From: Lachnospiraceae bacterium
GTDB taxonomy: Bacteria; Bacillota; Clostridia; Lachnospirales; Lachnospiraceae
Assembly (NCBI GenBank): GCA_024693135.1
Contig: JAILLN010000029.1
Location: forward strand, 1-64,000
Direction of reading: 5' to 3'
Length of the DNA stretch: 64,000 nucleotides
This document shows, in pieces, positions 35,259-53,158 of the stretch. Each line of letters opens with the position of its first letter. The stretch's first letter is position 1. The notes under the pieces are model-generated. The model saw only the letters and a program-made list of their open reading frames with translations, had not been told where the DNA came from and did not search any database. A program made the translations under genes and the position numbers.

Positions 35259-35462
35259 ATGGCAGATATGATGAAAAACCGGAACAAAATGAACGGACGC
35301 GACCCGGAGGAAGAGGAAGAGTGGCTCATGTATGATGAAAGAAAGAGCCAGGAAAGCCTCAACCGGGTTGAGGGAGCCTTTACGGAAAAAGCAAAGCATG
35401 GGATCAATACCGAGCCCAGCGTCTTTGACCGGACTGCGGTATTCCGGATGGGAAATCCTTAA
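35259..35462 (+). CDS. Small highly charged hypothetical protein
   Basis: 67 residues, mostly charged (NGRDPEEEEEWLMYDERKSQ), with no membrane segment and no known family. The consensus extended -10 immediately upstream suggests real, leaderless expression. Its TAA stop overlaps the TAA of the AAA+ ATPase gene on the other strand through the shared palindrome TTAA. It might be an accessory of that operon, but only adjacency supports this. Confidence 0.5.
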   Translation: MADMMKNRNKMNGRDPEEEEEWLMYDERKSQESLNRVEGAFTEKAKHGINTEPSVFDRTAVFRMGNP

Positions 35463-37477
35463 GCCAGGTAGGAATACTTGCCGAGGGCGTCTGCGGAGAA
35501 GGTCACCGTGGAGGTCTTTTCCAGCTCCAGGCGGATGGAACGCAGAAGATGGCTCATGGAAAGGGGCTTATCCTGGCTTGCGGCCAGGCAGCAGGCGTTG
35601 AGGAAGACGGTCTTGATGATGCTTCCCGTGAAGGTGCTGAACTGCTCCGCAAGGTAATCCAGGTCGATCTCCTCATGGGGCACGTCGTCGGTGATGCAGC
35701 CCTCCCAGATGGCCCGCCTGGTGGCGGCATCCGGGCTTTCGAAATGGATGACATAGCGCAGCCTCCGGAGGAAGGCAGGGTCTATGTTTCCTTTGATATT
35801 GGTGGCTAAGATCACCACTCCGTCATAAGCCTCGATCCTCTGCAGGAGATAGGAGATCTCATTATTCGCATATTTGTCATGGCTGTCACGGACCTCGCTC
35901 CGCTTGCCGAAGAGGGAATCCGCCTCGTCGAAAAAGAGGATCGCATTTGACTTTTCTGCAAAGAGAAAGGCCTTCTCCAGGTTTTTCTCCGTTTCCCCGA
36001 TATATTTATCCACGATATGGGAAAGGCTTACCTGATAGAGGGGAAAGCCCAGCTGGCCTGCGATGGCGTTTGCCGTCATGGTCTTTCCTGTGCCGGGAGG
36101 GCCGGACAGGAGAAGGGATACGGCTGTGCCGTAATGGTAGCCGCTGCGAAGCTTCCAGTCCTCTAAGACCGTATGGGCGGTGCGCACGCAGCCGATCACG
36201 TCATTCAGGATCTCGCGGATCGTGGGACTTACCTTCACGTCCTCCAGGCGGATGGTGGGATAGACGATCCGGCCGACCTTTTCCTCCGTGGCCGTAAGGC
36301 TCTGCATCACGATCCGGGAGAAAAGATCCGGATCCTGCTTCAGATCCTGCCCGCGCTCGGCAAAGGAGAGCATGGCACGGGCGGCTTCACTGGCATTGAG
36401 GTGATAGCGCATGGCGAGGTCATCCGGATCAAAGGAGGAGCCGTCGGTCCCACTCAGGTATTCCCGCTTAAGCCCTTCCCAGAGGGCTTTTCTTTCGCCA
36501 TAATCCAGGGCCTCCGGCAGTTCCAGGAGGCGGTATTGGGATTCATGCAGGGAAAGAAGGAGAAGCTTCGGGCTTTCCGTGCAGAGGATGAGCCGGATCC
36601 CGGCAGAAAGGATCGGCCGGAAAAGCTTCTGCTCCTTTAGGAAGTGGCTGTCCGTGATCCGGTAAAGGCAGATGATCCCCTGCCTTAGCACAGCCTCCCG
36701 GATCAGAGCCCGGAGCTTTTTTTCGAAGAGGGGGGGCTTTTCATCGGTCAGCTCATCGATGGCAAGAAGGAGGAGCGGCTGCCCCAGCTCCCTGGCGATA
36801 TGCTTGGAAATGAACCGCCTGCCGCCGGAACCTGCGATCTGCAGTACATCTCCGCCGGAGCGGAAAAAGTCAGAGCCGGACTGAATGAGCTCCGGCACCA
36901 CAAAGGGCGCATGCAGCAGGATATCCGTGCCGAAGATCTCCAGGGAGTCCATGATCAGGGGATCCGGGGAATCATTGCCGGACAGGTAGGCAATGATCCG
37001 GGCATGGGGCTCAAGCTCCTGGTACTGGATGGGGCTTGAGGCGAAATCGATGCCCACGATGAGCCTTGCCTGTTCTGCTTTTTTTAGGATCTCGTTTTCA
37101 TCCGGGGATTCGATGCCCTCCATCAGAAAGGCCAGATGGAGGTTCAGGGAAGAGCCCAGGTGGAGAGCAAGGACCGCAGAAAGCTCCGGCAGCATGAAAA
37201 GAGCAAGGCTCAGATCAAGCAGGGAGCGGAGCACCGGGTCGAAGGAAAGGAGCTGAAGGATGGAAGCATAGCGTCTCACCTGGATGTCCGGATGGGAGGC
37301 CTCCTCTTCCAGGGAGTTCTCTGCCTCGGACCAGTACTTCAGATCCGCCTCAGTGATCCTTTCGGCATAGGACCGGACCGCCGGGAACTTTTCATATGGC
37401 TCCTCGATGCCGAGCTCCCTCAATTTTACATTCAGCCGAAGCAGGATCACCGCGGCTACCGTTTCCAGGTATTTCAA
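35459..37477 (-). CDS. AAA+ ATPase of the contractile-injection-system-associated type
   Basis: 672 residues; a TTG start with GAGGTG upstream. The N-terminal 390 or so residues include a helical part and a degenerate ATPase-like domain without a Walker A. The C-terminal AAA+ module is complete: Walker A GPPGTGKT (about 457-464), HIVDKYIGETEKNL, Walker B ILFFDEADSLFGKRSEV (about 512), sensor-1 ILATN and the arginine-finger region FLRRLRYVIHF. The YIGETEKNL, FGKRSEVRDSHDKYAN and YLLQRIE stretches match the ATPases found in Afp/PVC-type extracellular contractile injection loci (Afp15-like). No sheath, tube or baseplate gene is in this window, so here it probably remodels its operon partners. 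Third gene of a minus-strand operon, 17 bases after the giant protein gene. Confidence 0.82.
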   Translation of the reverse strand: MKYLETVAAVILLRLNVKLRELGIEEPYEKFPAVRSYAERITEADLKYWSEAENSLEEEASHPDIQVRRYASILQLLSFDPVLRSLLDLSLALFMLPELSAVLALHLGSSLNLHLAFLMEGIESPDENEILKKAEQARLIVGIDFASSPIQYQELEPHARIIAYLSGNDSPDPLIMDSLEIFGTDILLHAPFVVPELIQSGSDFFRSGGDVLQIAGSGGRRFISKHIARELGQPLLLLAIDELTDEKPPLFEKKLRALIREAVLRQGIICLYRITDSHFLKEQKLFRPILSAGIRLILCTESPKLLLLSLHESQYRLLELPEALDYGERKALWEGLKREYLSGTDGSSFDPDDLAMRYHLNASEAARAMLSFAERGQDLKQDPDLFSRIVMQSLTATEEKVGRIVYPTIRLEDVKVSPTIREILNDVIGCVRTAHTVLEDWKLRSGYHYGTAVSLLLSGPPGTGKTMTANAIAGQLGFPLYQVSLSHIVDKYIGETEKNLEKAFLFAEKSNAILFFDEADSLFGKRSEVRDSHDKYANNEISYLLQRIEAYDGVVILATNIKGNIDPAFLRRLRYVIHFESPDAATRRAIWEGCITDDVPHEEIDLDYLAEQFSTFTGSIIKTVFLNACCLAASQDKPLSMSHLLRSIRLELEKTSTVTFSADALGKYSYLA

Positions 37478-37493
37478 GGGTACACCTCACATG

Positions 37494-40400
37494 CTATGAA
37501 ATGGAATTACGCAGCACCGCCCTCCAGTTGGCAGGAGCTCCCACGGATACCATGAGGGATTGGAGGGGAAGGGATCTTAAGAGCTCCCGGTTTTTCCTCA
37601 GGTTCTCTCCCGTAAAGCGTTCATCCCCTTCGCCGGCCATGTTGAGATAGGGCTGCATCGCGGTGATGGCTAAGGCTTCTTCACCGGTGGACTTGCCGGG
37701 CTTTTGGATCATGGCGTGGGTGTCGATGGCCATAAAGACCCGGGCCAGATCCATCAGATAGTGCTTATTATTGATGCCGGTCTCCCGCTTTAGGGCGGCA
37801 TCGAAGCCGGCGGCCCAGGCAAGGGATTTGTCTCCCATGGTGGCGCCGATCTGTTCCATGAAGGCATTGGAATCATGGAGTTTGCCATGCACCCAGCCTA
37901 CGAATTTGGAGCCCATGGCCATGAGATGCAGGGGAAGGACCAGAACCCCGCCTCCTACGGCGGCAGAAAAGCCCGAGGCGCCGGTTGCAAACTTGATGCC
38001 GCTGGTAGCGATGTCATGGCCTGACATTTTCCGTTCCCTGCTGGCCCGGGAGCGGGCAAGCCGGTTGAAGTGGGAAAATTGTGCGCTCTTGATGGAAGCC
38101 AGTGCCGCCTTGGAGGAGGTCTTTTCCAGATCCTCTTCCCGGATGGACTGTGCAGGGGTATAGGTTCCCGGATTTTCCGCGGCGAGCCTCTTGCGCTCTT
38201 CCTGGAAGTCCGTCATGCCGGTGGCCATCTCCTTATCCGTCTTGTCGATCTTATTGATCAGCATGGTGGTGGTGGCAATGTTGATGGTATCCTGGATGAT
38301 ATTGAAAACGCTCCGGATCATGATCATGACGTTGAAGAAGGGATTCACCACGTTGTTTACTGCCTTCGGAAGCTTGGAGGTCCACAGATAGAGCATGTTG
38401 GAGATCAGCTCCAGACAGGCGATGCACATACTGGTGATGCCCAGGGCCTTCTGTTTTTTGCCGGCATTGGGATTTTTGGCCAGCTCGATGATCTTCTTGA
38501 TGGTGGTGACCAGGGTGTAAAACAGCTTTACGGTATTCATGGCTGTCATGGCCGTAAGTCCCGTATCCTTGCCGCCGGCCAGGGTGGCGATGGTGGCCAC
38601 CGGAAGAAAGGCCACGCTGTAGCCCATGGTGGTACAGTCGGACATGAGGTTCAGGTAATTCATGTTGAATTTATTGAATACCGCAGAGAAATCCTGGTTC
38701 TTGGCCCAGCCCATGGTGCCGGAATCCTTCACGGTGGCGCTGAAAAGGTCGGCTACGGGAGAGAACATGCTTCCATTAAAGAAGCTCTGCTTGATATGGT
38801 CTGCGGAAAAGAAGCCGCCGCGCCTGGCCTCCAGATCCTCCATGTACATGTTCAGCCGGTCCGGCCGGAGGCTCTTCGAGAGGTCGAAGAAATCAAAGGA
38901 GCGGTCTGTGGTAAATTCCGTCATGAGGCCCATCCGCATGGTCTCCCCTTCCGCAGGGAGATAGGTGAGCTTCCGCTGATATCTTCCGCCCAGCTTCGTG
39001 GCGATCTCCTTGGCTACGCCCCAGCAGACGGGGTCGTCCTGGGCCAGGAGCATGACGGCAAGGTCTACCGCGGCTTTTTTGTCGCCTAGGGCCAGTCCCA
39101 GGTTCTTCTTGACCAGTTCATCCGCCAGGGCATCCTCGGAGGAATTAAACCGGGCGATGCCGGTGCGGGGTTCGGAGGTAAGGTAGGTAAAGACCTCGTC
39201 CACAGCCGTGACTACGCTGGGAGAGCCTTCCTTGACCTGTTCCTTAAGCTTTGCGATCATCTCGGGGGTGAGCTTCTTTTCGCTGAAGTCATCCAGTTCG
39301 ATCTCACCCGGATGCTCTGCTTCGGCCTTTTTCTTTTCGGCTTCCCTTTCATCCTTCGTCAGCTCCTCGTATTCCTCGACCAGAGCCTTCTCCGTTTCCT
39401 CGTCCAGGCTTCCTTCATCCAGGTCTGCGCTGGCCTGATCCAGGGCTTCTCTTTTTTCCCGCTTTTCGTCCTCCTGCTGAAGGATGGTGGTGGCTTTCGT
39501 CTGGTATTCCGTCGTCTTGATGCTCTTGGCAAAGGCGGCCTTGGCTCCGTAGCCCTCATAGATCTGGATCGTGGCCGCATTGACATGCCGGAAGAAATCG
39601 GAACGGCGGATGGCTGTCCTCACGCGCTCCTCATCCGACAGGCGCTTTTCCCGGTAGGAATGAAAGAGGCCCGCATCGTCCATGGAGACAAGGGTATCCT
39701 GGTCGGAGGAGATAAACCTGCCTCCAACGACCATGCCGTTTACGGTCTTGCCCCGGATAAGGCCGGTCTTAGCCTGGTGGATCTTTGCAGAGGACTCGGA
39801 AAAGAGAAGCTCTCCGTTGGTTCCTTTTTCATCCGCCACAAGATTGGCTTCGGAGGAATCGATCAGCTGATCCTCCTTCTTTTCCTCATTGCTCGCTCCC
39901 TCACGCTCGACCAGCTTTTTATGATCCTCAGCGGAGAACTGCCTCCTTGCCTTATAGCCCTTGAAGGCCGCATTCATCTTCATCCTTACCCTGGGGGCAT
40001 TGGCATCGGTCTCGTCCAGCACGTTATCGATCCCCTCGGCAAAGGATTCAAAGGTCATCATGTGATGGTATTTGATGAGCTTTTCGGAATCCATGGTATT
40101 CTGGCTGCCCTCACCCAGCTTCCGGTTGGGGACATGCATGATCTTAGGGGTGGTGAAATAAGGATAATCCCTGACCACGGCGGCGATGGAGCGGATCTGC
40201 TTCGGCTGGTAGATGCCGACATATTCCGCGATGCTTTTGACGGCGCCTTCCTCAAGTTCACGCTCTTCGGTGCCGGCCAGCTTCCGCGTCATGGTATAGT
40301 AGCCCATGGCCAGGTCGTCATAAGCCTTGTAATGCTTGCGGAAGGTGCCCTCCCGGTAAGCGTTCCGGCGCCTGGTATTCCATTCCTCTGCCTTGTCCAT

Positions 40401-41585
40401 GATGGTCTTTTCGGACCGGTCTGCCTCCCGCTCCAGCTTATCCGCCGCAAGCCTTGCGCGCCTGACTTGTTCATCCAGCTTCAGGAAGGACACATAGCGC
40501 TTGGACCGGAGGCTTCCCTGGTTTTCCTGGATCTTTTCGAGGATCTTGTTCAGGGTATCCAGGTCGGTTTGCAGGTCCTCCGGATTGCCCGGATTCATCT
40601 CGAGCCAGTTGAGGTCAATGTCGGATTCCTCTACATCCCGCTGCTCCTCCTTGGCCTCGTTCTGCTTCTTGGGATCCTCCGGCGGCTCTTTAGGCTCGTT
40701 CTGCTCTTTGGGTTCGATCTGCTCCTTGTTCTGCTCCTCGATCTGCTCCTCGGTCTGTTCCTTGAGTTCGGTCTGTTCCTTAAGCTCGGCCTGTTCCTTG
40801 AGCTCGGTCTGTTCAGTCTGTATCTTGAGTTCGGTCTGCTCAGTCTGTACCTTGAGCTCGGTCTCATTGGGCGGAGGAAGCTGCTCAGTCTGCGGCTTGA
40901 GCCCGGCCTGTTCAGTCTGCGGCTTGGCCTCGGCCTCATTGGGCGGAGGAAGCTGTTCGTTCTGTTCCTTGATTTCAGTCTGTTCAGTCTGCGGCTTGAC
41001 CTCGGACTGTACCTGCGGAGGCTGGGACAGGGAGTCCGGCTTCTTTACCGGCTGCTGGATAAGGGGAGGCTGGATCTTTGGCGGCTCGGGCCTTCTTCTC
41101 AAGGTGGGGCGGACAAGAAATGCCAGATCCGAGGAACGCCGTTTTCTGGGTTCGGGAGCCTCCTCGCCTTTCTTGATGCGGATGATTTTTTCCACGGAGC
41201 TTGCCGCCTCCTCCACATGCTTCCCGCGGTAACGGCTGATGGCAAGCTGGTATTCGGCCTTGGCTATGGCCACCTTCCTGGACTTGCTTTTCATCTTTTC
41301 GATCAGGGGGATGAGCTCCTTATTATCGAAGTTGTCGTGTTCGCTGGCGAAGCTTACCGCATCCACCCGGGAGGTTTCGTTTTCTGCCTGCATCTGGGAG
41401 AGCAGGGTATCCCTTACTCCCTGGATCACGGTTTCCCGGTCCTCGCCGTTTGCGATCTTATCTTCATGCTCATCCAGCCACTGCTGCCCCTGATCCATAT
41501 AGGAGCGGTGGGTGCTGTCGATTTTCTTTTCGTTCAGATCCTTTACATCGGAGAGGTAGCCTCCCGCATAGCCTTCTCTTGGCAT
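37494..41585 (-). CDS. 1363-residue protein with Q/E/T-rich linker and buried hydrophobic helices
   Basis: No known family recognised. Order of parts: a helical N-terminal region (1-150); a low-complexity linker (about 165-315) of LKxQTEQTE-like repeats; a long charged helical section (about 330-800); then a C-terminal part containing hydrophobic stretches near 980-1005, 1045-1070, 1080-1110 and a glycine-rich one near 1200-1230. No signal peptide. AAAGGGGAACAAC precedes the ATG. The hydrophobic helices in a leaderless giant recall effectors or toxins that insert after delivery. Its upstream neighbour could be a chaperone and its downstream neighbour a AAA+ ATPase. Effector, scaffold or cargo roles remain inference; codon use is like its neighbours. 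Confidence 0.75.
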   Translation of the reverse strand: MPREGYAGGYLSDVKDLNEKKIDSTHRSYMDQGQQWLDEHEDKIANGEDRETVIQGVRDTLLSQMQAENETSRVDAVSFASEHDNFDNKELIPLIEKMKSKSRKVAIAKAEYQLAISRYRGKHVEEAASSVEKIIRIKKGEEAPEPRKRRSSDLAFLVRPTLRRRPEPPKIQPPLIQQPVKKPDSLSQPPQVQSEVKPQTEQTEIKEQNEQLPPPNEAEAKPQTEQAGLKPQTEQLPPPNETELKVQTEQTELKIQTEQTELKEQAELKEQTELKEQTEEQIEEQNKEQIEPKEQNEPKEPPEDPKKQNEAKEEQRDVEESDIDLNWLEMNPGNPEDLQTDLDTLNKILEKIQENQGSLRSKRYVSFLKLDEQVRRARLAADKLEREADRSEKTIMDKAEEWNTRRRNAYREGTFRKHYKAYDDLAMGYYTMTRKLAGTEERELEEGAVKSIAEYVGIYQPKQIRSIAAVVRDYPYFTTPKIMHVPNRKLGEGSQNTMDSEKLIKYHHMMTFESFAEGIDNVLDETDANAPRVRMKMNAAFKGYKARRQFSAEDHKKLVEREGASNEEKKEDQLIDSSEANLVADEKGTNGELLFSESSAKIHQAKTGLIRGKTVNGMVVGGRFISSDQDTLVSMDDAGLFHSYREKRLSDEERVRTAIRRSDFFRHVNAATIQIYEGYGAKAAFAKSIKTTEYQTKATTILQQEDEKREKREALDQASADLDEGSLDEETEKALVEEYEELTKDEREAEKKKAEAEHPGEIELDDFSEKKLTPEMIAKLKEQVKEGSPSVVTAVDEVFTYLTSEPRTGIARFNSSEDALADELVKKNLGLALGDKKAAVDLAVMLLAQDDPVCWGVAKEIATKLGGRYQRKLTYLPAEGETMRMGLMTEFTTDRSFDFFDLSKSLRPDRLNMYMEDLEARRGGFFSADHIKQSFFNGSMFSPVADLFSATVKDSGTMGWAKNQDFSAVFNKFNMNYLNLMSDCTTMGYSVAFLPVATIATLAGGKDTGLTAMTAMNTVKLFYTLVTTIKKIIELAKNPNAGKKQKALGITSMCIACLELISNMLYLWTSKLPKAVNNVVNPFFNVMIMIRSVFNIIQDTINIATTTMLINKIDKTDKEMATGMTDFQEERKRLAAENPGTYTPAQSIREEDLEKTSSKAALASIKSAQFSHFNRLARSRASRERKMSGHDIATSGIKFATGASGFSAAVGGGVLVLPLHLMAMGSKFVGWVHGKLHDSNAFMEQIGATMGDKSLAWAAGFDAALKRETGINNKHYLMDLARVFMAIDTHAMIQKPGKSTGEEALAITAMQPYLNMAGEGDERFTGENLRKNRELLRSLPLQSLMVSVGAPANWRAVLRNSIS
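40640..41090 (-). repeat. Degenerate minisatellite encoding the Q/E/T linker
   Basis: Units of about 27 and 18 bases encode LK(V/I/P)QTEQTE and LKEQTE and drift to EEQIEEQNKEQ and KEQNEPKEPP at the C-terminal side. Two interspersed LPPPNE segments mark a longer super-repeat. The third positions are similar between units, suggesting recent slippage. Confidence 0.8.
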
Positions 41586-41623
41586 GTTGTTCCCCTTTGT
41601 TTATAGTGCTTAAATAAAGACAG

Positions 41624-42361
41624 TTACTGGGTCTTTGACTTTTGCCGCCGGGTCTTGGCGGCTTTCGGAGGAGGGGCGGCGGCATCCGCTTCATCTCCGG
41701 AAAGCAGCTCTTCCCTGGCCTTGCGGGCTTCCTCCTCGATCTCTTCATCGGACATGCCCGCCTCCTTCATGGCATCCCGGTATTCCTTCTCCTTTTCGTC
41801 CAGGAGTTTTTCAAACTGGGTGAGCCTTTCCTGAAGATCCATCAGGTCGGAGACGGAATCCAGGTAGCCCATATAGGATTCCAGGGAGAGATCCCTTGGA
41901 TGGTCGCAGATAAAGAGAATATAGTCCGTGAAGATGTCCAGCTGCTCCACCAGAGCCCCCAGGAAATACTGGACATTGGTGAGCTCAGCCTCCAGATGGT
42001 CCGGATTAAAGGGCATCCGGTAGGTATGATAGATCTGCTGCAGCGGGGCATAATAGCCGAAGCTTCCGAAGGAGGGGAAGGCACCCACTGCGGTGCAGGT
42101 ATTGAGCTCGTTTAAGGCCATTACGATCTCCGGGACATCCGCCTTTTTTACTTTTTCGGCCAGGGTGCAGTGGAAATGCAGGATGGGGTAGGGCGAGGCC
42201 TCATGCAGCCCAGGCTCTACGGCGAGCTCGAAGATCACATTGGCGTCGGTGACCCCGAGATGCTCTGCCAGAGCCCGCAGCACGCCGTTTCGCATGTTGC
42301 AGGCGCCGAAGTATTCGATCATGCATTCCTTGAGCTTTTCCTCGAATTCCTCCATGGTCAT
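41624..42361 (-). CDS. Hypothetical protein, possible YbjN-fold chaperone
   Basis: ATG at 42361 is chosen because AAGGAG lies about 8 bases upstream; the longer TTG start at 42382 contains that site. About 245 residues. Residues 1-140 alternate helix and strand (LAEHLGVTDANVIFELAVEP, PILHFHCTLAEKVKKADVPE, then FGSFGYYAPLQQIYHTYRMP), a layout resembling YbjN or type III secretion chaperone-like folds. A charged helix and an Ala/Pro/Lys-rich tail (AAAPPPKAAKTRRQKSKTQ) follow. It is the first gene of the operon, 38 bases before the giant protein, so a dedicated chaperone for it is a natural guess. Fold assignment is tentative. Confidence 0.65.
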   Translation of the reverse strand: MTMEEFEEKLKECMIEYFGACNMRNGVLRALAEHLGVTDANVIFELAVEPGLHEASPYPILHFHCTLAEKVKKADVPEIVMALNELNTCTAVGAFPSFGSFGYYAPLQQIYHTYRMPFNPDHLEAELTNVQYFLGALVEQLDIFTDYILFICDHPRDLSLESYMGYLDSVSDLMDLQERLTQFEKLLDEKEKEYRDAMKEAGMSDEEIEEEARKAREELLSGDEADAAAPPPKAAKTRRQKSKTQ

Positions 42362-42479: not shown

Positions 42480-44546
42480 TCAGAGCGCAGACATTTTTTT
42501 GAGGGAACGCTTATTTTCGTACATCATGTTGTCCGCCCGTTCGAATACCTCGGATACCCTTGTATCGGCTCCGGGGACATATTCCGACATCCCGGAGGCG
42601 ATCACCGGACGGTCCCCGAGGCCGGTGTTTTCTTCCGATCTCTGACGGAGAGCCTGGAAAAGGGCCTGCCTTGCAGTATAGTCGTCGCCTCTTAAGAATA
42701 TCGCGAATTCATCGCCTCCGATGCGGAAGATAAAGCTATGGGAAAAGATATCGCGCAGGATCCCTGCCGCAGACCGGATGTACTCGTCTCCCGCCTTGTG
42801 TCCTTTCGAATCATTTACCTGCTTCAGGTCATTGATGTCGCATACTGCGATGGCAAAGGGGAGATAGTCGATGCCGTTGTCGATGTTGGACTGCACGGAC
42901 TGCTCCAGCTCCATGTAGGCCGTTTTGTTCTTGACTCCCGTGAGTTCGTCACGCCGGGCAAGCTCCTTTTCGGTATTCAGGGCCTTTTGATGCTCTTTTT
43001 CCTTCCGGACTTCGGCATCGATATTTTCCACCCCGATGATCAGATGCTGGGAATCGCTGCTCTTTCTGGCCGTAAGCCGGGTATGCTGGGATCTGCCGTC
43101 GACGATCAGGCGGTATTCGATGCCAAACTGCCTCCGGTCTTGAAGCTCGGAAAGGAGGTGTTCCCGGTCCATGATATCCAGCATGAGCTTCTGGTTCTGG
43201 GGGTGGATGATGAGGGGGATATTTCTTCGGGTATCCTCGAAAAAGTCTTCTCCCGTGTGTTCGATCTCCAGCTGGCCGTAGATATTGTGGGAGGTATAGC
43301 CGACATAGCTCGAATCCCTGACATCCACATAGTAGATCACGTCATAGTTGGAGGCGAGGCTTTCGGCGATCTGTCCGAAGGTGGCGTGCTTCTTCCGGTC
43401 TTCCTTTAGGGCCATCTCGGCCGTGACGTCGTCCTGGATGTCCTTGTCGCAGAGGACGAAATGCTTCCCGTCCTTTGCCAGCATCAGCTGGAACCGGAAG
43501 TAGCGGGGATTTCCGTTTACCATGACGCGGTACTGGCAGGAGTAGGATTTCCGTCCCTTCAGGTTTTTCAGCATGGTATCTTTATGATAAAGGCTCTCGG
43601 CAAAGGCATAGTCGTCCGGATGGACGAACCGGCGGACGTTTTCCCGGGTCTCCCGGTAGAAATCCCTGCCGCTTTTCGGCACGTTCATGGACTGGTATTT
43701 CTCGCTGGGAGAGAATTCCTGATATCTTCCGGTTTCGATATTGATATAATAGATCGCCTCATAATCCTCTGCCAAGCCTTCTGCGATATGGTTGTAGATC
43801 TCCCTTTCCTTCCGGGTCCTTTCCGTCTTTTTCTGCTCGAGCTTCGCTTTTCTCTCTACCCGGTTTAGCTTCAGGATCATGTCCTGCTTTTCATCCTCCT
43901 CCACAAATACGTGGATCAGGCTGGTGGAGAGGATGCAGCCGATGGCGTAAAAGGGCAGGAGCGGGAAAAGGGTCTGGAGAAGGATGAAGGAACCCATCGT
44001 AAGGCCGGAGACGGCTACTGCCCGGTAGTGGATCCGGTCCTTGCCGGAAGACCGGGAAGAGGTGATCAGGGAATAGATGGAGAGCACAGCATGGAGCAGG
44101 AAGAGGACGACAAAGATGAAGTGCCTGCCGTTGCCCGGGACGTAACCCTGGTCTGCATTATAGGCAAAGATCACCGGATAGAAGAAATTGATCACAAGAT
44201 GCAGGATGATGAAGACAAAGATGCCATATCCAGCATAGATCAGGCTTTTGCTCCTGGCTCCCTCCCGGCCGATATATTCCACCACAAAGCGGGTCCAGAG
44301 GAGCACGGAATAGGACATGGTCACAAAGTACACCAGGGTGTCCATATAGATGATCGGAACGATGCGCCCATGGTTGAGCAGACCCCAGAATATATCGGAT
44401 AGATAGTAAATCGTAATGATGATCAGAAAACGCCTGTAGCAGGATGAGCCGGCATGGGATTCGGTCTTTTCGTCCTTCTTTAGGATCCCATGATTTATGA
44501 TCAGATGGAGCATCAATGAAAGCATCCCGAAGCTTGCGTAGTACAT
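42480..44546 (-). CDS. Membrane diguanylate cyclase with two PAS-like domains
   Basis: 688 residues. Seven or so N-terminal hydrophobic helices (to about 230) are followed by a coiled-coil linker. Two related sensory repeats follow, each with YxxIYYxxxxTxxYxxxS and RRNIPLIIHPQN or RENVRRFVHPDD. A GGDEF domain ends the chain (DELTGVKNKTAYMELE, VCDINDLKQVNDSKGHKAGD, IFRIGGDEFAIFLRG). The canonical GGDEF suggests an active c-di-GMP synthase. AGGGGAGGG precedes the ATG. It is on the same strand as, and just upstream of, the 245-residue/giant/AAA+ operon, about 120 bases apart, so the two might be co-regulated. Confidence 0.9.
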   Translation of the reverse strand: MYYASFGMLSLMLHLIINHGILKKDEKTESHAGSSCYRRFLIIITIYYLSDIFWGLLNHGRIVPIIYMDTLVYFVTMSYSVLLWTRFVVEYIGREGARSKSLIYAGYGIFVFIILHLVINFFYPVIFAYNADQGYVPGNGRHFIFVVLFLLHAVLSIYSLITSSRSSGKDRIHYRAVAVSGLTMGSFILLQTLFPLLPFYAIGCILSTSLIHVFVEEDEKQDMILKLNRVERKAKLEQKKTERTRKEREIYNHIAEGLAEDYEAIYYINIETGRYQEFSPSEKYQSMNVPKSGRDFYRETRENVRRFVHPDDYAFAESLYHKDTMLKNLKGRKSYSCQYRVMVNGNPRYFRFQLMLAKDGKHFVLCDKDIQDDVTAEMALKEDRKKHATFGQIAESLASNYDVIYYVDVRDSSYVGYTSHNIYGQLEIEHTGEDFFEDTRRNIPLIIHPQNQKLMLDIMDREHLLSELQDRRQFGIEYRLIVDGRSQHTRLTARKSSDSQHLIIGVENIDAEVRKEKEHQKALNTEKELARRDELTGVKNKTAYMELEQSVQSNIDNGIDYLPFAIAVCDINDLKQVNDSKGHKAGDEYIRSAAGILRDIFSHSFIFRIGGDEFAIFLRGDDYTARQALFQALRQRSEENTGLGDRPVIASGMSEYVPGADTRVSEVFERADNMMYENKRSLKKMSAL

Positions 44547-47691: not shown

Positions 47692-48444
47692 ATGACGAAA
47701 AAAGTCTTGCTCCGGCCGCATCTTCTTATGCAATATTCTATTCTTATCCGGGTTCTACCACATTCCCTTTTTTATCATAAGATCCCGGAACTCTATGATC
47801 CGGAGAATCCGAACGACCGGTATTTGGTTCATACGTTGAATACGTTTATGTATATGCAGGCACCGGAACGTTTTGCCGGGGCTTCATTTGACCCGAAAGG
47901 CAAAGGCGCCTCAAAAACCCTGGTCGGAATGCGCATGAGCCATACCATGGATACGATGATGTTCGGGATCAATGATGCGGATTACGGCTTCATCAATTTG
48001 TTGAACAAGCTGGAAAACGGTGATCCTGAAGTCAAGTGGGACGAGGAGACCTTCTATGAGCCGTTTGCTGTGGAAGAGCCCGTATTGGTCTCGAAAACCC
48101 TTGAAAAGATGGAGCGCCGGAGTGTGCGGGACAGCAAGGCAAAAGAAGCGGTAAGGGCTGCCGAAATGCTGAAAGACCAGGACTTCTCATCGGGAATGGG
48201 CACACCGAAGACATCGGATCTGATCAAGGCCTGCTCCGTCTATGAGGAAAAACGGAAGCCCCGGACAGACCTCGGAAAACAGCGAAAGGAAATGGTCCAT
48301 ACGATCCGGGAAAACGCCCTTCGGGAAATGGACATTTTCCACACAAATTCCCGGGAATACTTTGAGAGCGGGAAGGGCGGTACCTTCGGAGATGTGATCG
48401 GAGACTTCCAGCGTACCCAGGCGATCATGAACGGGCAGCTGTGA
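47692..48444 (+). CDS. Hypothetical protein, start uncertain
   Basis: A frame of up to 250 codons. From about residue 30 (PELYDPENPNDRYLVHTLNT) it looks like a genuine soluble, charged protein, but the first 28 residues are rich in unusual hydrophobic and Leu/His codons and have no ribosome site. The gene may therefore be N-terminally truncated or start downstream (ATG codons near 47728 and 47850). C-terminal DLGKQRKEMVHTIRENALRE is helical. No family recognised. It ends just before a copy of the repeat associated with the AAA-ATPase_like gene. Confidence 0.45.
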   Translation: MTKKVLLRPHLLMQYSILIRVLPHSLFYHKIPELYDPENPNDRYLVHTLNTFMYMQAPERFAGASFDPKGKGASKTLVGMRMSHTMDTMMFGINDADYGFINLLNKLENGDPEVKWDEETFYEPFAVEEPVLVSKTLEKMERRSVRDSKAKEAVRAAEMLKDQDFSSGMGTPKTSDLIKACSVYEEKRKPRTDLGKQRKEMVHTIRENALREMDIFHTNSREYFESGKGGTFGDVIGDFQRTQAIMNGQL

Positions 48445-48453
48445 TGGGGCTGC

Positions 48454-48515
48454 GGCAGGATCACTCCTGCATATTCGATGTACTAGCTGATTTCGTGGGA
48501 GCTTACAAGAGAAGG
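48454..48515 (-). repeat. Apparent internal-deletion relic of an AAA-ATPase_like element
   Basis: 48454-48471 (GGCAGGATCACTCCTGCA) is identical to 53257-53274, the 3' end of the AAA-ATPase_like gene. 48483-48515 matches 54987-55019, its 5' flank, at 32 of 33 bases. Order and orientation are the same, but the 1.6-kb gene between them is missing. The result looks like a miniature, deletion-derived copy. Confidence 0.75.
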
Positions 48516-48537
48516 GGGCGTTAGATATGCTCACAGA

Positions 48538-48969
48538 TCAGAATCTGCCGGAATAGCCAGAAGACCGGATAAACTCGGCAAAACGGAGGACTTCATCCTG
48601 CTGCCTGGGGCGCATTCCGGAAAACAATTGGAGCAGCTTCCTGCTTTTTGAGGTGTTCGGCAGGGAAGGCTCCTCCTGGGAGTCCGAATATAAAGCATTT
48701 TCTCTCATCGTTGTAATTCCGGGTGCATCAAAAAAGATTGTATCATCCAGAGAAACGCTGTTCTTTAAGAGTTCATTCACCGTCATGCCGTAAAAGCAGG
48801 CAATCCTATACAATACAACAGAGCTCGGCATCCTTTTCCCGCATTCATAGTTACTGTAGGTACCCTGCTGGATATCAACGGCTGCGGCGATATCGGCCTG
48901 TTTGTATTCATGAGCGATACGCAGTTCCTTCAGCGTATCCGCAAATCTTTTCCGCTCGTCAGCGTTCAT
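48538..48969 (-). CDS. XRE-family transcriptional regulator
   Basis: ATG at 48969 is supported by GGAGAGG a few bases upstream; the longer frame adds nine residues. The 143-residue protein has an N-terminal helix-turn-helix (LKELRIAHEYKQADIAAAVD, then IQQGTYSNYECGKRMPSSVV) and a 75-residue C-terminal tail ending in helices (QQDEVLRFAEFIRSS). Its target is unknown. It is divergent from the lipase-like gene at 49307 and could control it. Confidence 0.88.
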   Translation of the reverse strand: MNADERKRFADTLKELRIAHEYKQADIAAAVDIQQGTYSNYECGKRMPSSVVLYRIACFYGMTVNELLKNSVSLDDTIFFDAPGITTMRENALYSDSQEEPSLPNTSKSRKLLQLFSGMRPRQQDEVLRFAEFIRSSGYSGRF

Positions 48970-49306
48970 GTATACCTCTCCGTGTGCATTTTTCATCTAT
49001 TTTAGGGGAAATCCAGCTTGAAGAAATAACAAAATACATATAAAATATTTCAAATGACATATTTCTTTGCGGGATGGTTTTTTGATGCTTTTGGAGTGGA
49101 GGGTGGTTTGTATTACGGGGTAGCAGAGGCGAGTGCTGTGTGAGGTTATAATATTCTGGCTGCGTATGGTTAAGATGCCTCTGATCTTAACATGGATGGG
49201 ATATTACACTGTCATCTGATCGACCCAGAGTGCAGATCATTCGAGGACACATATGCTCGATATGGTGATTTTTACAACCCGTATATTTTTTGGGGAGGTG
49301 TATGAG
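48970..49306. promoter_or_regulatory. AT-rich divergent region between XRE regulator and lipase-like gene
   Basis: 337 bases without a gene. A TATAAT lies at 49147-49152, and an inverted repeat GTTAAGAT-(7)-ATCTTAAC at 49169-49191 sits between it and the lipase start. The palindrome is a candidate operator for the XRE protein. Nothing else is evident. Confidence 0.4.
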
Positions 49307-52300
49307 ATGAATAAAATTTGGAAGCTATTTCTATCCCGCCTTTTTTGGTTAGTGTTGTTTTTCATTATTGTCTCTACATGCTCGGCTTATATTGTCTTGG
49401 CTGACGACACACTTCCAACCGGCGTACAGGATCAGATTGTAATACTTGATCCTAAAAATATAACGAAACCGGCTGGACAAAAACAATATTTATATTTTGA
49501 TGATAAGTGTCTTAGTATTTATGATATCAGCTATATAATATACTGCAATGATAACGGAAAATATGAAGAGCAATTTATTTATACTTTTTGTAACGAGAGT
49601 CTTTCAAATACTCCGCAGATTGATATATCATATCAACTTACGGATGCAGATGGAAATGCGATACAAGGAGGCGGGTTTGAGGTAAAGGCATTGAAACCAG
49701 GGGAAACATCTAGAACAGTATCAGTTGGAGGATATCCAGAAGATTGGTATCCTGATACTGTATCGTATATTATTGGAAGAAGCAAAGACATTTATTATTT
49801 GAAGCTAGAATATGAAGGGAATGAGGGAACTTTTACCAAAAATCCTTCATTTCTGCATTATGAAGATTTTCACGGAGTTATACTGCCATACGACAGCGAG
49901 CTCCGTCCAAAAGGGAAAGAGGATCTTGAGATAAAAACGTACTGGGATTTTTCACTTCTTGAACAAAATACCAATCTTGCTAATTACCAGCTATCGTTAG
50001 TAACTCTTGCGCTTGCACGAAACGCATACAAACCTGATAGAATAGAAGGGGTTATGGATACTCTGGGCATAAATGATAATTTTAACTCTTATCAAGATCC
50101 AAATGGGGATGTTTATCATCCAATGGCATACTACGGATATGAAAAGGCAACAATCAAAGGTATATCCTACAACATTTTTTGTGTTTCAATAAAAGGTTCT
50201 TCAAATCTGATGGATTTTTCAACCGATGTTAATGATGGGCCTATCTTTTTTAAGAATTGTATGATAAACACAAGGAATGATCTTATTCGTTTTATGGAAG
50301 AGAGTACAGGCGCACATTCTTTAGACGAATTAAAAAACCAGAACAATATTTTTTTGATAGCAGGTCACAGCCTTGGGGGTGCTACCGCAAACCTTCTTGC
50401 TGTAAACGTGACTGATTTCGCGAATCCGGAAAAAATATTTTGTTATACATTTGAACCCCCTCATACTTGCACAGAGCTTGATTTAATTGGAGTTGAGGTA
50501 ATACCACATAATTTTATTAACGAGAGAGATTGGGTAACCGATATGCCCCCATGGCACAAAGCGACGACCTATGGACATAATATAAAGTTTGACTCTTTGG
50601 CATTAGATTCAAAAATATATGAAGAACTGTTTGAAGTGAATAATGACCCGTTCTCTTTATATCAGCATAAAGGGGTTTTTAGGTTTCATACATCGGATAA
50701 TGATTTAGCATACTTGATGCAGGCAGCAGCAACATTGGATGGAATACATCCTGAATCGGTTATTAAACGTATTATTAGAGTCAAATGTCCTGTATATGTT
50801 AATGTTTATCATGACGGAAATCTGATTTCCAGTACAAAAGAAGGAGAAGAAAGCAATTTATGCCCCAATCTGGCATATTCTGTTGTTAATGGAAATGATA
50901 AATATGTTTTCCTATATGATGATAGCGAGTTCGACATAGAAGTTGTCGGTACGGGAGAAGGGAAGATGGATTATGAAGTTTTTCAGGAAGATACTGCAGA
51001 TGGCATGAGCTTTATTAAAGGATTTTCAAGTGTGAAGATTACAGAAGGGAAATGTATCTCCTCAACTATAGACAATTCTGTTAGTAGTTGCACTCTTTTG
51101 GAAGACACGGTCAGATTATTTGTGGTTGATCCAGAAAAGCCTAATTCTGAAAACAACATAAAGGAGATTTATATTGATGGATCGGAAAAATCTATACTTA
51201 AACCGGATCATGTTTCTATGAATCAAAGTGAGTATATTTATACCGGTGAGGAAATAATACCATCGATTTCTGTAACAGTCAGTGGTAATAAACTAACTGA
51301 AAATCAGGACTATATACTTAAATGTAGTAATAACATCAGAGTAGGGACAGCAGAGCTTGTTGTTGAAGGAATGGGTGATTATGTCGGAAGTGTTTCTCGA
51401 AATTATACCATAATTTCCAATAATCCAAGCAATCCAGATCAGCCTGACAATCCCAATGATCCCGACATGCCAGAATACGATGACGGTGATAACGGCATAA
51501 AGCCGGGGGATCTTCCTCCTGGAATGAAACAGCCGGAAGGCATATGGATCGGAGGCCTCCAGAAGAAATATGCCTATACCGGCAGCGCAATAAAGCCCGA
51601 TTTCCGGGTCTACTATGGCGACAAGAGGCTCGCCCCGAAGCTGGACTATACGGTTTCTTATAAGAAGAATACAAATCCTGGAACCGATGCCCAGGTCGTC
51701 CTAACATTCAAAGGCGACTTTACGGGGAAAAAGACAGCGGCATTTGAGATCGAGAAGAATCCGCTGTCTCCCGGAACCGTATCGGCAGATGCCCTGTTCG
51801 CCGCCTATAAGAAGGGCAGGAAGAATAATGCCGTGAAACCGGTGCTGGCGGCAGCTGACGGAACCGTATTGAAGTACACAAATAAGGACTTCGAGCTGGA
51901 GTACAAAGATGCCAAGACAGGGCAGGCGAGCACCTGCGAAACCCCCGGAGATTACATCGTCCACATGACGGCCAAGAGCGGGAGCAGGGGCTATGCTTCC
52001 GGTGCATCGATTGATGTGCCACTTACCGTCATCGATGGAAAGCCCGTCATGAGCGGGGTGAAGGCCGGCGGAAGCCTAAAAGTAAAATTCACGGGTGAGA
52101 AAGCCCTGCCGGCGCTGACGCTCAAATATGCCGGGCAGACCCTGGACAGCAAGAATTATTCCGTGGAGACCGTCTCCGGGGACAATTATGCGGATCCCGG
52201 GAGCCATATCCTCATCCTCAGGGGCGACGGGGTGAACGTGTTCGGCACGAAGCGGATCACCTACAAGATCACGGGCAAACGGAAGCTGGATGACAGCAAA

Positions 52301-53158
52301 TATGCGGCGGTGATGATCGATCCGGCTGGCCTTGACGCAGAGGGCCAGGCTCCTTACGCCTATGGCGGGGCGAAGCCGGAGATCGTCGTATCCTACAACG
52401 GGGTGCGGCTGAAGAAGGGCAGGGACTATACTGTGTCATACAGGAACAACAAGAAGGCCGGGAATACGGCCAGCCTCACCGTTAAAGGTATCGGCGGCTA
52501 TGCGGGAACCGTGGAGAAGGAGTTCAAGGTCTCGCAGAGGGATCTGAAAGACTTGATCCTTGTGGTGAACGACCGGGCGGAATCCGGCAGGGAGAAAGAC
52601 TACGAAAAGACACCGATCATGTTCTTCACAAAGGACGGCTTTGCCGACCAGAGGCTGAAGAAGTCGGACTACACCGCCGTATTCACCGTTTCATCCGGCA
52701 GCACCGCTCCAAAAGCCGGGGATACCGTGAGCGTGAATATCGCAGCGAAATCCGGCGGAAACTATACGGGCGAAGCCTCCGCAGAGTTCAGGATCATCAA
52801 GGGGACGGAGGACCTCGGGAAGGCGGCAGTCGCGGTCAACAAAGGGAAGGCCTTCGGCTATACCGGAAAGGAGATCAGGCCTGCCGGAGGGGATGTCGAA
52901 GTGAAGTTGAAAGGGAGCACGGTCAGCCCGGAGAAGTACGAGCTCATTTATTTCAACAACGTGGAACGGGGCAGCGCGGCCGTCTGGATCAAAGGTAAGA
53001 ATGGATGCGGCGGGGGCCGGGTCGTACGCTTCAAGATCGGAGGCTCCAAGGCCGCGGACATGTGGGACGGCGTGATCCAGGCCGTGCAGAATATGGAAGA
53101 AAGGACTGCGGTCAAAACATTCAGACCGGTATGGAGATACAAGAGGAAGGCAGCATGA
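49307..53158 (+). CDS. Secreted lipase-domain protein fused to Ig-like repeats
   Basis: ATG at 49307 has GGGGAGG eight bases upstream; an in-frame ATG at 49253 lacks one. 1283 residues. A signal peptide (helix about 8-30, SAYIVLA) is followed by a beta-rich region. An alpha/beta-hydrolase (lipase class 3-like) core has IFLIAGHSLGGATANLLAV with nucleophile Ser about 355; the rest of the triad cannot be fixed by eye. From about residue 640 there is an Ig-like module, a Pro/Asn/Asp linker (NPSNPDQPDNPNDPDMPEYD), then further Ig-like modules (YAYTGSAIKPDFRVYYGDKR) matching 1-2727. The front (to about 51450) is clearly AT-rich and the tail GC-rich. It may be an extracellular or surface lipid esterase. 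Confidence 0.82.
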   Translation: MNKIWKLFLSRLFWLVLFFIIVSTCSAYIVLADDTLPTGVQDQIVILDPKNITKPAGQKQYLYFDDKCLSIYDISYIIYCNDNGKYEEQFIYTFCNESLSNTPQIDISYQLTDADGNAIQGGGFEVKALKPGETSRTVSVGGYPEDWYPDTVSYIIGRSKDIYYLKLEYEGNEGTFTKNPSFLHYEDFHGVILPYDSELRPKGKEDLEIKTYWDFSLLEQNTNLANYQLSLVTLALARNAYKPDRIEGVMDTLGINDNFNSYQDPNGDVYHPMAYYGYEKATIKGISYNIFCVSIKGSSNLMDFSTDVNDGPIFFKNCMINTRNDLIRFMEESTGAHSLDELKNQNNIFLIAGHSLGGATANLLAVNVTDFANPEKIFCYTFEPPHTCTELDLIGVEVIPHNFINERDWVTDMPPWHKATTYGHNIKFDSLALDSKIYEELFEVNNDPFSLYQHKGVFRFHTSDNDLAYLMQAAATLDGIHPESVIKRIIRVKCPVYVNVYHDGNLISSTKEGEESNLCPNLAYSVVNGNDKYVFLYDDSEFDIEVVGTGEGKMDYEVFQEDTADGMSFIKGFSSVKITEGKCISSTIDNSVSSCTLLEDTVRLFVVDPEKPNSENNIKEIYIDGSEKSILKPDHVSMNQSEYIYTGEEIIPSISVTVSGNKLTENQDYILKCSNNIRVGTAELVVEGMGDYVGSVSRNYTIISNNPSNPDQPDNPNDPDMPEYDDGDNGIKPGDLPPGMKQPEGIWIGGLQKKYAYTGSAIKPDFRVYYGDKRLAPKLDYTVSYKKNTNPGTDAQVVLTFKGDFTGKKTAAFEIEKNPLSPGTVSADALFAAYKKGRKNNAVKPVLAAADGTVLKYTNKDFELEYKDAKTGQASTCETPGDYIVHMTAKSGSRGYASGASIDVPLTVIDGKPVMSGVKAGGSLKVKFTGEKALPALTLKYAGQTLDSKNYSVETVSGDNYADPGSHILILRGDGVNVFGTKRITYKITGKRKLDDSKYAAVMIDPAGLDAEGQAPYAYGGAKPEIVVSYNGVRLKKGRDYTVSYRNNKKAGNTASLTVKGIGGYAGTVEKEFKVSQRDLKDLILVVNDRAESGREKDYEKTPIMFFTKDGFADQRLKKSDYTAVFTVSSGSTAPKAGDTVSVNIAAKSGGNYTGEASAEFRIIKGTEDLGKAAVAVNKGKAFGYTGKEIRPAGGDVEVKLKGSTVSPEKYELIYFNNVERGSAAVWIKGKNGCGGGRVVRFKIGGSKAADMWDGVIQAVQNMEERTAVKTFRPVWRYKRKAA

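Follow-up and report, generated by a model that had tools for sequence, protein, structure and literature searches.

The three-gene locus

Three adjacent genes, called the trio here, are encoded in a 64,000-nucleotide stretch of DNA from a Lachnospiraceae bacterium (GenBank assembly GCA_024693135.1, contig JAILLN010000029.1, positions 1 to 64,000 of the forward strand). The whole stretch is called the window. The trio consists of a small gene, a gene for a giant protein and a gene for an AAA+ ATPase (Table 1). The window is contig C50 of the source genome G000, which comprises 3.19 Mb in 67 contigs and is 87.8% complete. An earlier reading of the sequence (the original prediction) proposed that the genes at 35459..42361 form an operon for a possible chaperone, a giant protein and an injection-system-type ATPase. 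Three minus-strand open reading frames (ORFs) of the proposed sizes were confirmed there. For the small gene, ATG 42361 is the most likely start, with AAAGGAG located nine bases upstream; the alternative start TTG 42382 gives 252 residues. Ribosome-binding sites are visible for all three genes, the giant included, and the intergenic gaps are 38 bp (small gene to giant) and 16 bp (giant to ATPase). The gene order small–giant–ATPase is also found in L006, a metagenome-assembled genome of a Lachnospiraceae bacterium from water-deer rumen, whose ATPase is 60% identical to that of the window. The trio is conserved.

Table 1. Genes of the trio in the window
Gene	Position	Strand	Remarks
Small gene, predicted chaperone	41624..42361	-	245 residues from ATG 42361; stop codon ends at 41624
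Giant, predicted cargo of a contractile injection system (CIS)	37494..41585	-	1363 residues; without curated family
AAA+ ATPase, Pvc15/Afp15 layout	35459..37477	-	672 residues, TTG start

The ATPase and the contractile injection system of the same genome

The trio ATPase consists of an N domain, a degenerate D1 domain and a D2 domain. D2 carries the Walker A motif (459), the Walker B motif DEAD (513) and an arginine pair (569). These motifs are present in D2 of all 27 ATPases compared, and the same patterns find none in D1. According to a tblastn search of plasmids, residues 214–655 (D1–D2) align to ATPases on Serratia entomophila plasmids, including NC_002523, which we take to be the Afp plasmid. 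The ATPase Pvc15 of the Photorhabdus virulence cassette (PVC) is described with the same N–D1–D2 plan, in which D2 is the sole active ATPase domain (PMC11495950, in the part available). The domain and motif layout of the trio ATPase is therefore that of the Pvc15/Afp15 type, and the ATPase had been assigned correctly to the injection-system class. In the neighbourhood of a Nostoc ATPase, a DUF4157 protein is encoded two genes upstream, and no structural CIS gene is annotated within 9 kb.

The original prediction noted that no structural injection gene lies near the trio. This is true within the window: when 23 CIS-cluster proteins of G000 were searched against it, the CIS ATPase alone gave a match, and the match was the trio ATPase. 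It does not hold for the genome. The family Phage_sheath_1 occurs once in G000, on contig C43, within a cluster that encodes Tail_P2_I, gp25, an OB-domain spike, two CIS_tube proteins, a gp19-like tube protein, the sheath, DUF4280 and Pvc16_N. Two Baseplate_J-like proteins also belong to the cluster; the first narrowly exceeds the Pfam cut-off, and the second falls short of it by 0.1 bit. The C43 cluster carries its own ATPase of 792 residues, which is 36% identical to the window ATPase. Thus, the window ATPase is an additional paralogue. A tree of the 27 ATPases places the trio ATPases outside a clade (100/100) of eight CIS-resident sequences of the own-genus type.

The small protein

The structure model of the small protein (predicted local distance difference test, pLDDT, 89.8) shows the class I type III chaperone/YbjN fold according to its fold matches, which agrees with the proposed chaperone. 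Pfam detected no chaperone or YbjN family among 29 members at E 0.01, and a profile search of the PDB gave nothing below E 0.29. The small protein thus resembles the class I type III secretion chaperones and YbjN proteins (SicP, CesT, VecA, YbjN and DR1245) without a sequence-family match to them; it differs from them in an extra helical tail and in its occurrence with a CIS. The profile of the small protein matches four of 397 genomes sampled from the family (G000, G357, G174 and G079). In the class-wide sample it matches two of 391, namely G000 and, weakly, G562 (E 6e-4). The small protein is likely to be the chaperone of the giant.

The giant protein

An alignment of 40 giants (37 distinct giants described below, and P0003–P0005) shows three conserved parts, which are the N-terminus (1–125), the block 400–690 and the helical C-terminal half. 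The long linker claimed in the original prediction is present, at about 151–330 of the window giant and about 147–333 in the alignment. It is rich in E, Q and P, and its length differs widely among relatives, as does that of a second linker (about 700–800 in the window giant, about 723–787 in the alignment). In the giant of G402, a 971-residue insert is located near window residue 438; this giant (L123:8104-14385) has 2093 residues and no Pfam match. The late hydrophobic helices are also present, but they are only moderately hydrophobic. A Kyte–Doolittle mean of at least 1.6 over any 19-residue window is reached in 19 of the 37 giants, and "amphipathic" is thus a better description than "transmembrane".

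The window giant matches no family in Pfam, NCBIfam, PADLOC or PHROGs. Over 34 giants, Pfam gave one weak PG_binding_3 match only, and NCBIfam gave three weak single-member matches among the giants. A profile search of the PDB found mainly designed helical proteins (best E 0.0018), and a scan of the IMG/VR viral contigs found no relative. Among 1137 ORFs in the fetched loci, the N-terminal profile of the giants matches no other ORF, and the C-terminal profile matches, besides the giants, only a 1033-residue protein of G174. In the protein search, the single giant sequence found five proteins and the 34-row alignment found P0001 only. Since the alignment found fewer matches than the single sequence, its result says nothing about spread.

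Occurrence with the CIS

Co-occurrence with the CIS was analysed with a profile built from five giants, and with the C43 sheath protein as the sheath query. The giant profile matches two of the 397 family-sample genomes, 21 of 48 genomes of the genus of G000 (own genus) and five of seven genomes of a second genus. The sheath query matches 38 of these 55 genomes of the two genera. A full-length sheath with at least 855 bits is found in 24 of 48 own-genus and seven of seven second-genus genomes. Within the own genus, this close sheath is present in 19 of 21 genomes with the giant and in five of 27 without it (Fisher p=1e-6, uncorrected for ancestry). For the 22 own-genus genomes with a completeness of 90% or more and a contamination of 5% or less, the counts are eight of eight with the giant and three of 14 without it (p=0.001, likewise uncorrected). 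The presence of the giant follows that of the CIS.

In the family sample, the sheath query matches 44 of 397 genomes, and both giant-bearing genomes are included. A 34-sequence giant profile found one more giant, a very distant one (G174), among 43 other sheath-positive genomes. A second, diverged CIS type was observed in seven own-genus genomes (G380, G397, G399, G400, G419, G434 and G441). Its sheath matches in two pieces with about 60% and 46% identity, and none of the seven carries the giant.

These distributions bear on a reading of the giant as a structural component of the CIS that resembles, or derives from, a tape measure, with the small protein as an assembly chaperone. The giant adjoins the ATPase, and in PVC clusters, whose gene order is given in part in PMC11495950, the tape measure gene pvc14 lies beside the ATPase gene. 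The giant is also long and, according to a low-confidence model, helical in secondary structure. Tape-measure-related CIS effectors are described, namely Sle1 (PMC13277306, as far as its available text goes). A tape measure would be expected once per CIS and always. The giant, however, occurs in several diverged copies per genome (G430 has them on seven contigs, some partial), most of them away from the CIS, and its length varies through disordered linkers. It is absent from five of 24 close-sheath own-genus genomes and two of seven second-genus genomes, and it is undetected in 42 of the 43 other sheath-positive genomes, although overly diverged giants could escape the profile. As the giant is multi-copy and optional, we consider a structural role unlikely.

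Linkage of the trio to CIS clusters

The linkage of the genes was analysed for 37 distinct giants, which represent most giant loci of the own and second genera together with the window, L006 and the second giant of G000 on contig C13. Nine contigs of G416, G428, G429, G430 and G431 were left out, and L116 was dropped because it repeats L006. A small gene (more than 150 residues, same strand, within 1 kb) accompanies 33 of the 37 giants, with gaps of 2–122 bp. The four others are L096, which has a 110-residue piece close to the end of its stretch, the giants of L117 and L119, which start at contig ends, and the C13 giant.

The trio ATPase type is encoded together with CIS structural genes in G402, G403, G405, G424 and G440, and through an adjoining ATPase in G414 and G430. 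Behind the CIS cluster of G402, G405 and G440, the CIS ATPase is followed on the same strand by trio ATPase, giant and small gene. In G403, the trio and the CIS ATPase are convergent. The baseplate and Pvc16-like genes of G424 are followed by small gene, giant and ATPase, then by a gene for a 445-residue protein and by a second ATPase. This second ATPase scores 272 bits to the trio type and 233 to the CIS type, and its place in the tree is unsure because it falls outside the CIS-resident clade on a long branch. In G174, which belongs to a third genus, the CIS genes are preceded on the same contig by those for an ATPase that scores 374 bits to the trio type and 284 to the CIS type, for the 1033-residue protein (27 bits and E 2e-7 to the C-terminal profile of the giants) and for a 170-residue protein (47 bits to the small-protein profile).

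According to the co-occurrence and linkage, the association of the trio with the CIS is very likely. The original prediction had also considered a defence effector and an intracellular assembly. The trio would then be a cellular or defence module merely travelling with the CIS, in which an AAA+ remodeller and a YbjN-like partner act on a large helical protein. The IetA anti-phage models of PADLOC and NCBIfam do match the AAA domain of the trio ATPase (132.7 and 127 bits), the small protein folds like YbjN and DR1245, and the trio stands alone within the window. These scores lie far below the cut-offs of the models, however (510 bits for IetA in NCBIfam), and no peptidase family was found in the three neighbouring proteins scanned, so that a peptidase partner is missing beside the ATPase. 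Moreover, the trio ATPase is a paralogue of the CIS ATPase, and the trio is linked to the CIS at the operon level. We found no support for a defence effector or for an assembly unrelated to the CIS, and regard such a module as improbable. The proposed orphan effector module fares better: an effector module of the CIS is favoured, and the module is orphan within the window only.

Pairing of small proteins and giants

Over the 33 small–giant pairs, the distances among small proteins and those among giants are correlated (r=0.867), and none of 2000 free permutations gave a value as high. Partner swaps were then confined to ten genomes with two or three pairs, by which host ancestry is fixed. The within-genome swaps gave a mean r of 0.31, and the true pairing was the best of all 3072 arrangements. 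Such divergence in step is the pattern that a cargo-specific chaperone should show.

One adjacent small gene per giant, diverging in step with it, is also the arrangement of a toxin with its immunity protein. In its fold, however, the small protein matches secretion chaperones and YbjN proteins, and the C-terminus of the giants is among their most conserved parts, unlike the tip of a polymorphic toxin. We therefore regard a toxin–immunity pair as very improbable.

A proposed dispersed cargo module

We propose that the trio is probably a dispersed cargo module of the Pvc/Afp-like CIS whose structural genes are located on C43, with the chaperone and the loading ATPase serving the giant. The observed basis of this proposal comprises the genes, the predicted fold of the small protein, the layout of the ATPase, the co-occurrence and linkage with the CIS, and the co-inheritance of small gene and giant. 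From these, we infer the binding, loading, injection, target and activity of the module. The giant is probably injected cargo. The small protein would bind the giant during its synthesis, so that it stays soluble and can be loaded. The Pvc15-type ATPase, as a paralogue of the CIS-resident one with a specialised role, would then take the giant from the chaperone and thread it into the tube during particle assembly, and contraction of the sheath would deliver it. The amphipathic helical C-terminal half would probably act on or in a membrane; this membrane action is a guess from the amphipathic helices. The best reading of the trio and its relatives is a multi-copy class of CIS cargo that lacks DUF4157 and in which each cargo comes with its own type III-like chaperone and often also with a second loading ATPase.

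Several observations weigh against this proposal. The co-occurrence counts are uncorrected for ancestry, and the giant-bearing own-genus genomes G412 and G416 (84–85% complete) show no sheath. Giants are undetected in 42 of the 43 other sheath-positive genomes, so the module is optional. A trio-type ATPase is located within 3 kb of only 19 of the 37 giants; two of these giants share one ATPase (L109), and L100 has its ATPase on the opposite strand. In G000, one giant out of two, that of C13, lacks a small partner. Conversely, G079 (99% complete, with neither sheath nor giant) holds a broken small-gene remnant, a 67-residue frame with a stop. The pairing is no proof of binding, since long-term linkage as a unit would give the same signal. 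The fold of the small protein is also that of YbjN proteins, which are described as having no known secretion role (PMC5398634, in the part available). Searches against Pfam, NCBIfam, PADLOC and PHROGs recognised no effector, enzymatic or toxin domain in the giant. The model of giant residues 395–1363 is unusable (pLDDT 46.5, from a 7-row alignment), and its mostly helical secondary structure is of low confidence.

Comparison with known systems

The trio may work like two described cargo–partner pairs. In the MAC system of Pseudoalteromonas luteoviolacea, JF50_12605 binds the cargo Mif1, is needed for a filled lumen, is absent from the particle and is called chaperone-like, and Mif1 disrupts membranes (PMC6748791, PMC11796346, according to their available text). 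This pair is the nearest working precedent for a cargo with a separate small partner (PMC6748791). As far as those accounts go, MAC is described without a second ATPase and in a Gram-negative marine host. The other pair is Sle1/Sle2 of the Streptomyces lividans SLP (PMC13277306), in the available account the nearest large helical, membrane-associating CIS cargo beside a small stabilising partner. Sle2 carries DUF4157, whereas the trio partner has a type III chaperone fold and no DUF4157.

The Eag chaperones of the type VI secretion system (PMC12881460, from the available part) share the idea of a cognate chaperone that shields hydrophobic helices of a contractile-system effector. That system is a different one, and the Eags bind N-terminal transmembrane domains. 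For extracellular CISs (eCISs), the core domain DUF4157 has been proposed as an effector chaperone, in cis or in trans (PMC8213781, PMC11297309, as far as available). Effectors with DUF4157/eCIS_core have the association of cargo with a CIS in common with the trio, but DUF4157 (PF13699) matched none of 34 giants and 29 small proteins. Over the 55 genomes, partial matches above the cut-off (positions 32–75 of 79; 23–25 bits versus 22) were found in three, including contig C54 of G000. The eCIS toxins described from Firmicutes in the available part of PMC8213781 include EAT8 of Paenibacillus and EAT12 of Ruminiclostridium.

The trio ATPase shares with Pvc15 the N and tandem AAA plan, the active site in D2 and, in relatives, its encoding with CIS genes (PMC11495950, in the available text). 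By analogy with Pvc15, a role in payload loading is suggested for it. It differs from Pvc15 in that it is a second ATPase, separate from the CIS-resident one and linked to a single family of cargo that has a chaperone of its own.

The apparent novelty lies in the combination of a type III-like chaperone fold, one such protein per giant and a second CIS-type ATPase, dispersed in the genome of Gram-positive gut bacteria. In the open-access PMC literature, nothing was found for eCIS with "cognate chaperone". Lachnospiraceae CISs hardly appear there; no paper was found that connects the family with eCISs, and one, a cockroach gut study, that mentions it together with contractile injection. The choice and loading of payloads in CISs are open questions, and the elements described for them in the papers cited here are signal peptides, Pvc15 as ATPase, DUF4157 and the partner of Mif1. 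If the proposal is true, a second CIS-type ATPase and a cognate type III-fold chaperone for each giant cargo would together form a loading route that is new. A small gene beside a giant would also be a recognisable sign of CIS cargo that matches no known toxin family.

Neighbouring genes and further observations

Six large proteins are encoded beside the sheath of the own CIS (L021:9452-19994, on C43). Equivalents are found in L097, L137, L140, L142, L143 and L146–L163. Of 11 further genomes examined, 10 have the set in their CIS clusters, sometimes minus one or two members; the exception is G380, which has the diverged sheath. One member is TolC-like (PF02321, E 1e-12) and another has MORN repeats. 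The set might anchor a Gram-positive CIS in the envelope or serve its release. More tentatively, Lachnospiraceae CISs might have a type III-like logistics layer, in which families of giant membrane-active cargo, each with a class I-fold chaperone and often with its own loading ATPase, feed one shared machine held in the Gram-positive envelope by a conserved set of membrane proteins including the TolC-like one. We think that this wider picture is less likely to be right than wrong.

Near giants and CIS clusters, further large proteins of 1008–2272 residues without Pfam match are encoded (L140:191-5971, L113:13160-19978, L023:15357-18383 and L123:15633-18758), which could be other cargo. The second giant of G000 on C13 (L020:8916-12389) is diverged and has neither a small partner nor an ATPase beside it. 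A repeat of about 700 bp, without Rfam match, is 82–93% identical between its two places, of which one (L011:7940-8690) separates two baseplate genes in the own CIS and the other (L020:12626-13321) lies beside the C13 giant. At the first place, it fills the gap between baseplate genes that are nearly adjacent in relatives.

In the window, a GGDEF (diguanylate cyclase) protein is encoded at 42480-44546, immediately upstream of the trio and in the same orientation. A stretch of low G+C content at 48000-52000 (0.41–0.44 versus 0.50–0.58 around it) contains an ORF of 1301 residues at 49253-53158.

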